Source: Plantactinospora mayteni | Lineage (GTDB): Bacteria > Actinomycetota > Actinomycetes > Mycobacteriales > Micromonosporaceae | Direction: 5' to 3' | Length of the DNA stretch: 36,364 nt | Assembly (NCBI RefSeq): GCF_016862935.1 | Contig: NZ_BONX01000068.1 | Coordinates: 1-36,364, forward strand | Shown here: in pieces, positions 8,284 through 14,971 of the stretch | How positions within the stretch are numbered: the first letter of the stretch is position 1 | How the letters are laid out: every line of letters begins with the position of its first letter | Translations under genes and position numbers: made by a program | The notes under the pieces: generated by a model | The model's input: only the letters and a program-made list of their open reading frames with translations | Databases searched by the model: none | Told to the model about the DNA's origin: nothing

Positions 8284-8420
8284 GACCCTGACCTCGCGGC
8301 TGCTGAACCGTCGAGCACCACAACCGGAGATGCGGGACAACCCCGCCCAGCCCGCACGCGTACGTTCGCGTGCCGATGGCTCGCACCCACTCCTCGAAGC
8401 AGCCCGAAAGGTCTCTCCAC

Positions 8421-9956
8421 GTGCCGATATCAGCGGCGAACCGTCATGATCCACGCCTGGTCAGGGTCGACGACTCCTGGCTGCGCCTGCCCAACCCGTA
8501 CGACGTCCCGGTCGAGATCTGCGCCGGGCCGGACGTACCCGTCGAACCGGTGGCGGTCGACGAACTGCTCACCGTACTGGAAACCGCCGACACCCTGCGC
8601 ACGCTGGCCCGGGCCGTGCCGGGGCTCGACCCCGAGCCCCGGGTCGAGCGGGTCGTCTGCACCCCTGACTTCCACAAGGGTGCCGGCATCCCGATCGGCA
8701 CCGTGCTCCGCACGGTCGGCGCGCTGATCCCGCAGGCGGTCGGCAACGACGTCAACTGCGGGATGCGGGTCGAGGCGACCTCGCTCACCGTCGACCAACT
8801 CCGCCCACACCTCGACCGGCTGGAACGCCGGCTGCGGCACCTGTTCTTCGCCGGTGGCCGCCGGATCGGGCTGACCGCCCGGCAGCGCGAGGGGCTGCTC
8901 CGCGAGGGACTGCCCGGGCTGCTCGCCGACGGCGTACCGGCCGATCCGGTGGGCGCCTGGCGGCAGGTCGGGCCGGACGACCTCGCCGACCTCGACGGTC
9001 GGCTGCACGCCACCGGTTTCCCGGTCGACTCCGCCGAGGACTTCCGGGACTGGATCGCCAGCGGCGGCGGTACCAGCTACGACAGCATCATCGGCAGTGT
9101 CGGCGGCGGCAACCACTTCGCCGAGTTGCAGTACGTCGCCGAGGTGCGCGACGGTGCCACCGCGTACGCCTGGGGGCTCGCCCCCGGCCAGGTGGTGCTG
9201 ATGGTGCACAGCGGCTCGCTGTCGCTGGGCCACCAGGCCAACGCCACCGGCCGGGACCTGGCCCGGGCCGGCTGGCCGCGTGCGGTGCCGCTGCCCCGGA
9301 ACCGGATCCTGCCGATCCCGCTGGACGAGCGCACCGCACCGGCCCGGCGGCGCTACCTGACCGCCTTCGGCAACGCGGCGAACTTCGCGCTCGGCAACCG
9401 GTTCTTCCTGGCCCTGATGCTCCGGGCCGGGCTGGCCGAGGTCGCCGGTGAGCTGCGGTCCCGGCTGGTCTACGACGCACCGCACAACCTGCTGTGGCCG
9501 GAGCCGGACGGCACGGTGCTGCACCGCAAGGGTGCCACCCCGGCCGCCGGACCGGGCGGCGACGGCCAGCGCCCGACCGACCTGTACGGCGAGCCGGTGA
9601 TCGTGCCGGGCTCGATGGGTGCGCCGAGCTATCTGCTCCGGGGGCTGGGCAGTTCCCGGGCGCTGGCCAGTGCCTGCCACGGTGCCGGTCGGAGCATCCC
9701 CCGGGGCGCGGCGTCCCGGGGCGGAGACGCCGAACTGGACGCCTTCCTGCGGGAGTTCCGGGTGGTCACCCCGGTCGACCACCGCGATCCGGCGGTCGCC
9801 GCGCGGCGGGACATCGTGGACGCCTGGCGCCGGGACCTCAAGCAGGAGGCGCCGTGGGCGTACAAGGAGGTGGGTCCGGTGGTGCGGAGCCTGGGCCGGG
9901 CCGGGGTGGCCGAGCCGGTGGTGGAACTGCGACCGCTGCTGACCGTCAAGGGCTGA
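8421..9956 (+). CDS. rtcB: RtcB-family RNA ligase
   Basis: RtcB joins RNA ends carrying 2',3'-cyclic or 3'-phosphate to 5'-OH ends with GTP and Mn, in RNA repair or tRNA healing. The 511-residue product keeps the key residues: PDFHKGAGIPIG; the metal/active site GNDVNCGM with Asp110 and Cys113; Asn231-His232 in GGGNHF; His263 in HSGSLSLGH; and the guanylylated His420 in CHGAGR after PGSMG. It is longer than classical RtcB (about 400-480) and its motifs are diverged (PDFHKG for DxHKG, SLSLGH for SRGLGH), so it belongs to an actinobacterial side branch; no archease gene is nearby. I chose GTG 8421, preceded by GAAAGG; other possible starts are GTG 8370 and ATG 8376. A strong hairpin follows the stop. 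Confidence 0.88.
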   Translation: MPISAANRHDPRLVRVDDSWLRLPNPYDVPVEICAGPDVPVEPVAVDELLTVLETADTLRTLARAVPGLDPEPRVERVVCTPDFHKGAGIPIGTVLRTVGALIPQAVGNDVNCGMRVEATSLTVDQLRPHLDRLERRLRHLFFAGGRRIGLTARQREGLLREGLPGLLADGVPADPVGAWRQVGPDDLADLDGRLHATGFPVDSAEDFRDWIASGGGTSYDSIIGSVGGGNHFAELQYVAEVRDGATAYAWGLAPGQVVLMVHSGSLSLGHQANATGRDLARAGWPRAVPLPRNRILPIPLDERTAPARRRYLTAFGNAANFALGNRFFLALMLRAGLAEVAGELRSRLVYDAPHNLLWPEPDGTVLHRKGATPAAGPGGDGQRPTDLYGEPVIVPGSMGAPSYLLRGLGSSRALASACHGAGRSIPRGAASRGGDAELDAFLREFRVVTPVDHRDPAVAARRDIVDAWRRDLKQEAPWAYKEVGPVVRSLGRAGVAEPVVELRPLLTVKG

Positions 9957-10020
9957 CCCGGCCGACCGCACACCCGCCGCCAACCGCACACCGCCGCCGA
10001 CCGTGACCTGGCCGTACCGC

Positions 10021-10080
10021 CCGCGCCGACACCTCGGTGTCGGCGCGGGCCTCCCCGGCGACCACCGACCGGTCGCCGGG
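10021..10080 (+). terminator. Double hairpin terminator after rtcB
   Basis: Two perfect hairpins in a row follow rtcB: CCGCGCCGACAC / CTCG / GTGTCGGCGCGG (10021-10048, 12 pairs) and CCCGGCGACC / 7-base loop / GGTCGCCGGG (10054-10080, 10 pairs). No T-run follows, which is usual for high-GC terminators. They separate rtcB from the trpS control region. Confidence 0.75.
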
Positions 10081-10102
10081 AGTCGCCAGGCATTTCTGCG
10101 GC

Positions 10103-10150
10103 GGTAGCAGGGCAGGCGGACCTCCCGAGCGGCCCACCCGCCCTGCTACC
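10103..10150. promoter_or_regulatory. Long inverted repeat at the trpS promoter
   Basis: GGTAGCAGGG (10103-10112) and CCCTGCTACC (10141-10150) are a perfect 10-base inverted repeat; pairing can be extended inward to 17 positions with two mismatches. The right arm overlaps a possible -10 box TACCGT (10147-10152) placed about 7 bases before the start of the leader transcript. It may be an operator or a further terminator of rtcB. No good -35 box is seen, so the promoter call is tentative. Confidence 0.4.
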
Positions 10151-10164
10151 GTGGGGGTGTGCGG

Positions 10165-10194
10165 ATGACCTCGAACGGTTGGTGGCTGCCCTGA
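10165..10194 (+). CDS. trp leader peptide MTSNGWWLP
   Basis: A nine-codon open frame, ATG to TGA, with two adjacent Trp codons (10180-10185). Trp is the rarest codon, and a Trp-Trp pair in a tiny frame directly before a tryptophanyl-tRNA synthetase and an attenuator is the hallmark of a leader peptide whose translation measures charged tRNA-Trp. The second Trp codon overlaps the first arm of the leader RNA; the stop codon lies in the loop of the 1:2 hairpin. The predicted transcript starts only about six bases before the ATG. Confidence 0.88.
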   Translation: MTSNGWWLP

Positions 10195-10257
10195 CGGGCG
10201 GCCAGCGCATCCACGCACCCGAAACAGCCAACGGCCGCCCCTCCGGGCGGCCGTTTC
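10184..10257 (+). promoter_or_regulatory. trp-type transcription attenuator of trpS
   Basis: Four RNA segments can be read. Segment 1, GGCTGCCC (10184-10191), pairs with segment 2, GGGCGGCC (10196-10203), with one G-U pair. Segment 2 can instead pair perfectly with segment 3, GGCCGCCC (10233-10240). Segment 3 can also pair with segment 4, GGGCGGCC (10245-10252), giving the terminator stem ACGGCCGCCC / CTCC / GGGCGGCCGT followed by TT. Segments 2 and 4 are identical, so the 2:3 and 3:4 stems exclude each other. A ribosome stalled at the Trp codons covers segment 1, frees 2 to hold 3, and lets transcription reach trpS; when Trp-tRNA is plentiful the ribosome reaches the stop and the terminator forms. 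Confidence 0.88.
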
Positions 10258-10307
10258 GCATGCGCTCACCCGGAGGCGGCCACCGTCACCGGTAAGGAGC
10301 ACTCGTC

Positions 10308-11342
10308 ATGGCCCCGAACGCAGCACTTCCGGCACCCACCGCGCTCGCCCCGAAGACCCCGGCGGTACGCCGGATCACCGGCCTCAAACCAACCGGTCAC
10401 CTGCACCTGGGCAACCTGGTCGGTGCGATCCGGCCGATCGTCGCCGGCCAGTACCGGGCGGAGACGATCGTCTTCCTCGCCGATCTGCACGCGCTCACCG
10501 TGACCCACCAGCCGGCGCAGATCCGGGCGCTCACCCTGGAGCAGGCCACCGTACTGCTCGCGGCCGGCCTCGACCCGGACCGGGCGCTGCTCTACGTGCA
10601 GTCCCAGGTGCCGCAGCACACCGAGCTGCATTACCTGCTGGAGTGCGCCACCGGCTACGGCGAGGCGCACCGGATGATCCAGTTCCGGGAGAAGTCGGCA
10701 CGGGACCGACAGGTCCGGCTGAGCCTGCTCAGCTATCCGGTGCTGATGGCCGCCGACATCCTGCTGCACGACGTGCACGAGGTGCCGGTCGGCGACGACC
10801 AGAGCCAGCATCTCGAACTCACCCGGACCGTGGCGACCCGGTTCAACGCCCGGTACGGCGACACCTTCACCGTGCCCCGGGCGGTCCATCCGGCGGTGTC
10901 GGCCCGGGTGATGGACCTGGCCGATCCGACCGCGAAGATGGGCAAGACCAACGCCAGCGGGGCGGGGACGATCTTCCTGCTCGATCCGCCCGAGGTGATC
11001 CGCCGCAAGGTGCTGCGCGCGGTGACCGACCCGGGCCGGACCGTCGGGTACGACCCGGGGCACCGTCCCGGCGTGGCGAACCTGCTGGAGATCCTGGCGT
11101 CCTGCCTGGGCGGCTCACCAGTGGCCCTGGCCGCCGACTACGGCTCGTACGCCCAGCTCAAGAACGCGGTCGCCGAGGCGCTCGAGGCGATGCTCCGGCC
11201 GATCCGGCTCCGCCACACGGAACTGTCCCGCGACCCGGGCTACGTCCGGCAGGTACTCACCGACGCCGCCGAACGGGCCCAGGAGAACGCCACCAACACG
11301 ATCCACCGCGCAAAAGACGCCCTCGGCCTACTCAGCCATTGA
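10308..11342 (+). CDS. trpS: Tryptophanyl-tRNA synthetase (attenuator-controlled type)
   Basis: Charges tRNA-Trp with tryptophan. The 344-residue protein has the class I motifs ITGLKPTGHLHLGNLVGA (23-40), ADLHALT (58-64), PVLMAADILLH (144-154, Asp150 for the indole), GDDQ (162-165) and a KMSKS-type loop reading KMGKT (210-214). Two deviations stand out: Lys27 where most bacterial TrpRS have Gln (xGxQPSG), and Gly-Lys-Thr in the loop. As recalled, in Streptomyces an auxiliary TrpRS that resists the antibiotic indolmycin carries a Lys at this first-motif position and is induced by ribosome-mediated attenuation; this gene has the same combination, so a similar role is likely but inferred. ATG 10308 has AAGGAG. 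Whether a second trpS exists elsewhere cannot be seen. Confidence 0.95.
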   Translation: MAPNAALPAPTALAPKTPAVRRITGLKPTGHLHLGNLVGAIRPIVAGQYRAETIVFLADLHALTVTHQPAQIRALTLEQATVLLAAGLDPDRALLYVQSQVPQHTELHYLLECATGYGEAHRMIQFREKSARDRQVRLSLLSYPVLMAADILLHDVHEVPVGDDQSQHLELTRTVATRFNARYGDTFTVPRAVHPAVSARVMDLADPTAKMGKTNASGAGTIFLLDPPEVIRRKVLRAVTDPGRTVGYDPGHRPGVANLLEILASCLGGSPVALAADYGSYAQLKNAVAEALEAMLRPIRLRHTELSRDPGYVRQVLTDAAERAQENATNTIHRAKDALGLLSH

Positions 11343-14440: not shown

Positions 14441-14971
14441 TCAGCTCGGGCAGAGCGCGTCCAGCCGCTGCTGCAACTGCTGGAGCTTGTTCTCGTCGAC
14501 CGACTCGACGGTGGCCTTCATCGCGCCGACCTCGGTCGCGATCTCGGCCAGTACCCCCTTGAGCCGTTCGTCGGTGGCCCGGGCGGACTGCTCCCGCATC
14601 GCGTTTCCCCAGGTCTGCAACGCCGCCTCCGCCTTGCGCTGTGCCGCCTGCGCCCCGGCGGTGTCACCCGTACCCGCCGCCTGGAGGGACTTGCCCAGCT
14701 CGGAGACGAAGGTCTGCACGGACGAGGAGGCGGCCTTGGTGGCGTCCGCGCAGACCTCCTTGCCGTTGCCGCCGGCCGGGCTGGTGTCCACCACCGGCGC
14801 CCCGGCCGGACCGCCCGGACTGGCACCCGGCGTCCCGGCGCCCGAGGACGGTACGCCGGCCGACGGGCCGCCGGACGGGCCGGGTGCGGCGGCGCCGTCC
14901 CGCTCACCCGAGCAGCCGGCCGCCGCGAACAGCGCGGCGGCGATAGCGGCGGTCACCAGCAGGCGTCGCAT
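14441..14971 (-). CDS. Putative lipoprotein of unknown function
   Basis: A 176-residue protein with a lipoprotein signal peptide (MRRLLVTAAIAAALFAAAGC; the lipobox AAGC makes the Cys the lipidated first residue of the mature form). A Gly/Pro/Ser/Ala-rich linker (about 21-75) leads to a helical domain: CADATKAASSSVQTFVSELGKSL, then heptad-like helices ending in VDENKLQQLQQRLDALCPS. Two Cys, near the start and at the end of this domain, could form a disulphide that closes the helical hairpin. I recognise no family function. The GGAGAAG-type ribosome site is strong. It has its own promoter and a structured leader of about 170 bases, and is transcribed towards rplU. Confidence 0.8.
   Translation of the reverse strand: MRRLLVTAAIAAALFAAAGCSGERDGAAAPGPSGGPSAGVPSSGAGTPGASPGGPAGAPVVDTSPAGGNGKEVCADATKAASSSVQTFVSELGKSLQAAGTGDTAGAQAAQRKAEAALQTWGNAMREQSARATDERLKGVLAEIATEVGAMKATVESVDENKLQQLQQRLDALCPS

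Follow-up and report, generated by a model that had tools for sequence, protein, structure and literature searches.

The genome of Plantactinospora mayteni studied here (G000, 9.8 Mb) encodes tryptophan--tRNA ligase twice, and the question that this locus raises is what controls the second, auxiliary-type gene. The window, by which we mean the whole 36,364-nt stretch analysed (NZ_BONX01000068.1 of assembly GCF_016862935.1, positions 1-36,364, forward strand), carries this copy. The other trpS of the genome lies at C19:55628-56623 and is 46% identical to it, so that a divergent extra trpS accompanies the housekeeping one, as is the mark of the Streptomyces trpRS1/trpL2 type. All seven genomes of the genus contain one window-type trpS each and one copy that is 45-46% identical, and among 300 genomes drawn from the family the window type is present in 111 (best E <= 6.4e-105), the best match in the remaining 189 lying between 5.2e-84 and 1.2e-71. 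We propose, with a probability of about 0.88, that a ribosome-mediated transcription attenuator controls the auxiliary trpS, that its leader is leaderless and starts at GTG 10159, and that it includes a pairing of the 5' end of the message with the linker that joins segments 2 and 3, which we call the lock.

The promoter, leader and gene are arranged as follows, the leader being placed by the leaders of relatives and the short motifs read from the sequence:

10147..10152, forward strand: -10 box TACCGT, within TGC-TACCGT (extended -10), with no recognisable -35
10159..10194, forward strand: leader ORF GTG...TGA of 11 codons, MRMTSNGWWLP; the first GTG base is the predicted transcription start
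10180..10185, forward strand: two Trp codons, TGGTGG
10294..10299, forward strand: AAGGAG, probably the ribosome-binding site of trpS; not part of the hairpins
10308..11342, forward strand: trpS, tryptophan--tRNA ligase, second (auxiliary-type) copy of the genome (TIGR00233, 292 bits, cut-off 177)

An initial annotation of this DNA had described a nine-codon frame with adjacent Trp codons, transcribed from about six bases before its ATG at 10165. The Trp codons are where it put them and so is the predicted start of the transcript, but that position is GTG 10159, which is itself the start codon of the leader, and the frame is accordingly two codons longer. Of the 109 family leaders that could be compared, 78 open with ATG and 31 with GTG, and 101 have an Arg codon (CGN) in second place. 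At 95 of these loci the first codon follows a TANNNT box at a distance of 5-8 nt, against a frequency of 0.008 at neighbouring positions, and a looser NANNNT box is present at all 109, with a spacing of 6 nt in 79, 7 in 28 and 8 in 2; start codons had been picked partly by the -10 box, although the background was deemed too low for that alone to produce the result. Consensus scans of the locus for sigma-70 promoters and terminators returned no site by their rules. A classical attenuator with a nine-codon leader from ATG 10165, behind a 5' UTR that is either very short or of normal length and without the lock, would be in frame with the longer leader and would switch in the same way. We regard it as improbable, as an ATG stands at codon 3 in only 28 of the 109 family leaders, an ATG or GTG is found throughout at the position two codons upstream, 6-8 nt past the -10 box, and a Shine-Dalgarno-like sequence precedes the leader at two loci. 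The starts of the relatives, the -10 spacing and the rarity of Shine-Dalgarno words thus place the window leader from GTG 10159 to TGA 10194, and since the -10 box lies 6 nt before that GTG, the message probably begins there and is leaderless. By RNA-seq, the S. lividans trpS leader is leaderless, and the mean distance of -10 boxes from the start is 6.3 nt, as given in the pertinent part of PMC8079986.

Two observations concern the DNA further upstream. An RtcB-like gene (window 8370-9956; best NCBIfam matches to RtcB RNA ligase models, all below cut-off) precedes the leader and is followed by a perfect 15-bp hairpin at 10019-10050, probably its terminator. An inverted repeat at 10102-10122 / 10131-10151 (21 nt, 86% complementary, arms 8 nt apart) overlaps the leader -10 box with its right arm and may be an operator, a terminator of upstream transcripts or chance; it is missing from the repeats of the congeneric loci L083 and L085, inspection of the other congeners by eye did not show it, and for these reasons we do not count it in the system.

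Is such a leader kept in relatives? The initial annotation had named conservation as a point on which its reading could fail, and the upstream regions of all 111 family loci with a window-type trpS were therefore inspected. A rule-based search gave leaders at 102 of them and eight more were placed by their peptide, so that leader and hairpins are present at 110 of 111; the exception, L189, ends at a contig edge and is left out of all structure counts, and L195, whose match begins inside the gene so that the leader start is cut, is left out of the lock, -10 and fold counts (hence n = 109). In-frame TGGTGG before a stop occurs at 93 of the 111 loci, at one of which (L108) it lies outside the leader, and most of the others have single-Trp leaders. 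What is conserved is thus a Trp leader and not a strict Trp-Trp pair: 90 of the 109 family leaders have two Trp codons, 18 have one and a single leader has three, and in 92 two codons separate the last Trp from the stop. A lost Trp is mostly replaced by Arg (WRAP, RWLP), often through TGG -> CGG, a change that retains the GG that pairs in segment 1.

Outside the family, 52 of 61 loci, drawn from protein searches (22 + 39), pass the automatic leader test, and 51 distinct ones of these entered the lock test described below; Clostridia-type trpS loci (40-45% identical), among the 80 loci of one search, were left out of the leader counts, and L049 and L078 show no leader by the rule applied to them. 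Among the nine loci failing the rule, L230 reads N, and L220, L225-L229, L231 and L232 have Trp frames by eye. In these eight the stop codon seems, again by eye, to lie beyond segment 2, and a ribosome would translate through the switch.

Downstream of the Trp codons lie the four segments that would form the switch itself:

10184..10191, forward strand: segment 1 (protector 5' arm), GGCTGCCC / GGCUGCCC, pairing with segment 2 through one G-U
10196..10203, forward strand: segment 2, GGGCGGCC, complementary to segment 3
10230..10240, forward strand: segment 3, AACGGCCGCCC, with the core octamer GGCCGCCC (10233-10240) complementary to segments 2 and 4
10245..10255, forward strand: segment 4, GGGCGGCCGUU, with the core 10245-10252 = GGGCGGCC, identical to segment 2; forms the terminator hairpin with segment 3

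Here the initial description holds base by base: octamers 2 and 4 are identical and both complementary to 3, segment 1 pairs with 2 through a single G-U, and the leader's TGA (10192-10194) sits in the loop around which the 1:2 helix closes, so that the predicted leader is a short Trp-codon ORF ending in the 1:2 region. The 3:4 stem has 11 perfect pairs (10230-10240 / 10245-10255). Across the whole window the pattern X..rc(X)..X with eight exact bases occurs twice on the forward strand and nowhere on the reverse strand, and in 100 dinucleotide shuffles of the window it appears 0.19 times each on average, never with Trp-Trp before a stop. The second exact triple, GCGGCGGC at 14886-14941, is probably chance. 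RNAfold gives the leader a z of -3.03, with none of 200 shuffles as low, and the window folds have energies of -18.4 (1:2), -17.4 (2:3), -23.5 (3:4) and -23.5 kcal/mol (1:2 with five lock pairs).

Comparison of relatives was made on an alignment of 79 of the 110 family loci from 27 genera (A1). The cells of 3:4 are paired in 92.1% of cases and six of its pairs have changes in both partners, a result matched by none of 500 shuffles; those of 2:3 are paired in 97.3%, against at most 57.5% in slid controls, and those of 1:2 in 86.2%. Covariation beyond shuffles on A1 is little or none in 1:2 and 2:3, both of which are nearly frozen, and for segment 2 it is this freezing of the sequence that leaves no signal. 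When folding was done with the bases covered by a ribosome held single-stranded (with an assumed footprint of 12 nt, counted from the first base in the A site), 2:3 formed in 109 of 109 family leaders with the ribosome on the first Trp codon and 3:4 in 109 of 109 with the ribosome at the stop. In free nascent folds, without a ribosome, 1:2 with at least five pairs formed in 104 of 109 and 2:3 in one; the five loci that lack 1:2 there include the near congener L083. The three mutually exclusive helices of an attenuator therefore all form in silico, with covariation in 3:4 only, and ribosome-mediated attenuation, as first suggested, is the best reading of the locus. Among the points against it, the tail after stem 4 is T-poor in the window (GTTTCGC, the TT of it inside the stem), and at 92 of 110 loci the end of the hairpin has no T run longer than 1-3, the other 18 having runs of at least 4.

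From this arrangement a mechanism can be proposed. Transcription would start at GTG 10159, and the leader would be translated as a leaderless message. With enough Trp-tRNA, a ribosome reaching TGA 10192 would cover segment 2, leaving 3:4 to form and transcription to end. When charged tRNA-Trp is low, through starvation or an inhibitor of TrpRS, the ribosome would stall on the Trp codons and cover segment 1, upon which 2:3 would form and the polymerase would run on into trpS. If the ribosome is absent or has been released, 1:2 would form and the 5' end of the message would pair around it with the linker at 10208-10216. This last helix is a fifth element that the initial annotation had missed:

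10159..10167, forward strand: 5' arm of the lock, GUGCGGAUG, start codon included; complementary to 10208-10216 and paired in the nascent minimum-energy fold
10208..10216, forward strand: 3' arm of the lock, CAUCCACGC, within the linker that separates segment 2 from segment 3; placed by complementarity, the nascent fold and comparative tests

In the window the lock has one C.A mismatch (10162.10213). As it crosses 2:3, the two are mutually exclusive except as a pseudoknot, and as it also hides the start codon, it would hold the off state; we infer that its purpose may be to do so and to limit initiation to one ribosome per transcript.

The evidence for the lock is comparative. In the alignment the conserved linker mirrors the first bases of the leader, ATGCGGATG with CATCCGCGT and ATGCGCGTG with CACGCGCG. 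Over the 109 family loci, which like the 51 outside loci had been found by protein, the mean lock score is 17.6, compared with 15.1 +- 0.24 for permuted linkers (best of 300: 15.95) and 11.1 for shuffled linkers, and it falls from 13.6 to 9.0 as the leader window is shifted by 3 to 12 nt. With one locus per genus (26), it is 17.9 against 15.6 +- 0.45 (best of 300: 17.1). The 51 distinct outside loci score 20.0 against 15.6 +- 0.45 for permuted (best of 300: 16.9) and 11.4 for shuffled linkers; among them the 35 Streptomyces-like loci reach 20.7 against 17.8 +- 0.55 (best 19.6), and the other 16 reach 18.4 against 13.9 +- 0.85 (best 16.1). For a formal count, 32 chosen sequences were aligned (A2), in which the nine lock pairs are formed in 89.2% of cases, slid registers giving at most 53.8%, and 13 lock cells have changed on both sides, against 5.4 +- 1.8 (0 of 500 shuffles). 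The number of lock pairs with changes on both sides on A2, four, is not beyond shuffles (115 of 500).

The words that pair differ from group to group: CGGATG/CATCCG and CGCGTG/CACGCG; CGAACC/GGTTCG in trpE leaders; GTGCT(G)/(C)AGCAC in Nocardioides; the ATGCGGATG/CATCCGCGT combination again in Actinomadura and one Pseudonocardia; and GCGTACGT/ACGTACGC in Streptomyces, mostly at leader nt 9-17, whereas the window lock uses the start codon itself. In minimum-energy nascent folds the lock has at least five pairs at 58 of the 109 family loci (shuffled linkers: mean 21, maximum 27), and the start codon is paired to the linker at 38.

The complementarity might instead be inherited, as a handful of frozen words with a common origin, or mark a site in the DNA that a protein recognises, and involve no RNA helix at all. 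Two results lean that way: when linkers are permuted inside one codon-2 class the signal is weak (6 and 11 of 500 permutations reach it), and at 51 of the 109 loci the minimum-energy fold has fewer than five lock pairs. Set against them, unrelated words keep the complementarity across families, and slid registers lose it, which makes this explanation unlikely, if still one to be reckoned with. We incline slightly towards the broader proposal that the Trp attenuators of actinomycetes are five-part switches, in which the leaderless 5' end, often with the start codon, pairs with the 2-3 linker. There the lock would strengthen 1:2, block ribosome loading and forbid the antiterminator, so that one ribosome decides the fate of each transcript, and it would be kept by different sequences before trpS in Micromonosporaceae, Actinomadura, Nonomuraea, Pseudonocardia, Nocardioides and Streptomyces, and before trpE-type genes. 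If real, the lock would offer a way for a leaderless attenuator, which has no Shine-Dalgarno sequence, to be closed after a single ribosome. No printed description of it was found in the literature searched, in which the study by Vecchione and Sello (2010) is represented by its title.

A different class of switch deserves mention, since in Firmicutes most genes for aminoacyl-tRNA synthetases are under T-box control, according to the section of PMC1262725 concerned. A T-box or another metabolite-sensing riboswitch before this trpS would leave a leader peptide with conserved Trp codons unexplained, and we give it almost no weight. Across the window, no Rfam family, T-box included, attains its gathering score.

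How far the element extends was asked with a covariance model of it that includes the lock (R1). In the genus, R1 has one match at E < 1e-13 in each of the seven genomes, at the window-type trpS; the next best match (E 0.056) comes from one of these elements read on its opposite strand, and at the seven housekeeping trpS genes of the genus there is none at E up to 1. At E 0.001 it matched 136 of the 300 genomes of the family, and at E 0.01 it matched 89 of 394 genomes of the class; the window-type trpS is present in 40 of these 394 at E 1e-90. R1 finds Trp attenuators with weak U tracts in high-GC genomes; the window itself matched no Rfam family. Thirty of the elements were opened, and 28, partly by eye, precede a trpS or trpE-type gene. 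Twelve stand before trpS (three by NCBIfam cut-off, the others by eye); seven before a gene over the cut-off of NF010081, anthranilate synthase (L257, L258, L265, L267, L278, L308, L309); five before a gene matching such models below cut-off (L269, L272, L305, L306, L315); and four before a trpE-type gene by eye (L273, with no match at 1e-20, L312, L313, L314). Two, L303 and L310, have no identified gene behind them.

This distribution fits control in cis, and it bears on the possibility that the main product is a terminated RNA or a peptide acting in trans, with the control of trpS secondary, a situation described for Sinorhizobium meliloti rnTrpL and peTrpL. The layout is the same, in that trpL is leaderless and the small RNA measures about 100 nt, to judge by the part of PMC7298713 that treats the S. 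meliloti case. The positions of the 28 elements tell against such a product, as does the peptide, which is variable between Arg 2 and the Trp codons in the family loci, and we see only a slim chance for it. In the attenuator reading that we prefer, the lock would extend beyond trpS of the window type: in 14 of the 30 opened elements (two before other-type trpS and twelve before trpE-type genes, near-duplicates and window-type trpS left out) it scores 19.5 against 15.6 +- 1.0 (best of 500: 18.8), in a set biased towards the lock because R1 itself contains it.

Several of these loci are of interest by themselves. L256 and L311 are elements before a trpS of another type (GDRPTG...LHxGHY; TIGR00233 over cut-off). 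Three family genomes, G076, G024 and G103, have four trpS matches each, including extra copies judged by eye (L300, L301 and L302) with their own attenuator of the same type. L304 and L307 are shortened trpS-like frames of 225 and 157 aa behind an intact-looking attenuator, perhaps decaying copies.

Among known systems, the trpL attenuator of E. coli has a Shine-Dalgarno leader and a long U tract and controls biosynthesis, and its start region pairs with a distal segment, limiting peptide synthesis. The window element has the same order of segments, the same position of the stop codon and the same stalling logic; it differs in its leader, its tail and its target. The pairing of the E. coli start region is a possible parallel to the lock.

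The closest precedent, which the initial annotation had named, is the auxiliary trpS of Streptomyces, and it could be traced as a prediction for S. avermitilis trpS2 from 2005 (in the relevant section of PMC1262725) and as the RNA-seq leader of S. lividans; the attenuation paper itself (Vecchione and Sello 2010, J Bacteriol 192:3565) is represented by its title in PMC4787780, which names ribosome-mediated attenuation of an antibiotic-resistant auxiliary trpS. Since an attenuated auxiliary trpS is already known there, the window element belongs to a known type, which is extended here to a second large actinomycete family with its exact parts. Both systems have a Trp leader peptide, terminator and antiterminator hairpins and a second TrpRS gene; the leaderless start seen by RNA-seq in S. 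lividans is predicted at the window. They differ in family and in the peptide, which is of the type MR...WWxP on the window side; S. lividans trpL2 is MMTRTCTQLWRAA, leaderless and with a single Trp, as printed in PMC8079986, and L209, which groups with the Streptomyces loci, encodes MMTRTCTQLWWAA.

The trp biosynthesis attenuators of Corynebacterium and Streptomyces share the Trp repeats and a complementary triple, printed as gGCC-rGCy-GGCC in the part of PMC1262725 concerned with them; these and the S. lividans trpE leader (in the passage of PMC8079986 on it) control biosynthesis genes and not a tRNA synthetase. The elements before trpE-type genes found in this analysis likewise show the lock. 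In S. meliloti the attenuator RNA also starts with the leader ATG, and there, in the portion of PMC7298713 that covers it, the element precedes trpE(G) and an action in trans is reported.

Whether the window enzyme resists indolmycin is a related matter. It has Lys (GLKPTG) at the position of a Gln in the two PDB relatives shown, and this Gln, of the Gln9 type, presumably contacts the inhibitor. In 94 auxiliary-type proteins a motif search gave Lys 66 times at this position, Thr 11, Gln 7, Arg 2 and Val 1, with no motif in 7; the residue is suggestive only as a sign of a resistant enzyme. The His of DLHALT is kept in the window protein; change of Bs H43 to Asn gives resistance in the account of PMC4899734, the equivalence of H43 to this His being taken from the motif. 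TrpRS1 is given as indolmycin-resistant in the text of PMC9437257 consulted, the S. coelicolor trpS paralogue SCO3334 belongs to the WblC regulon in the corresponding part of PMC7157823, and the chuangxinmycin cluster of an Actinoplanes was found via a possible resistance trpRS, as summarised in PMC12087186.

Leader peptides of other synthetase or amino acid genes were also sought in the genus. None was found before leuS at nine loci by the rule used. About 450-470 nt upstream of an ilvB match, four of seven congeners (L282-L285) have a short frame, MSATRSFRVLI, that may belong to a branched-chain attenuator, as a -10-like box lies just upstream of its start and a hairpin rich in T follows it.
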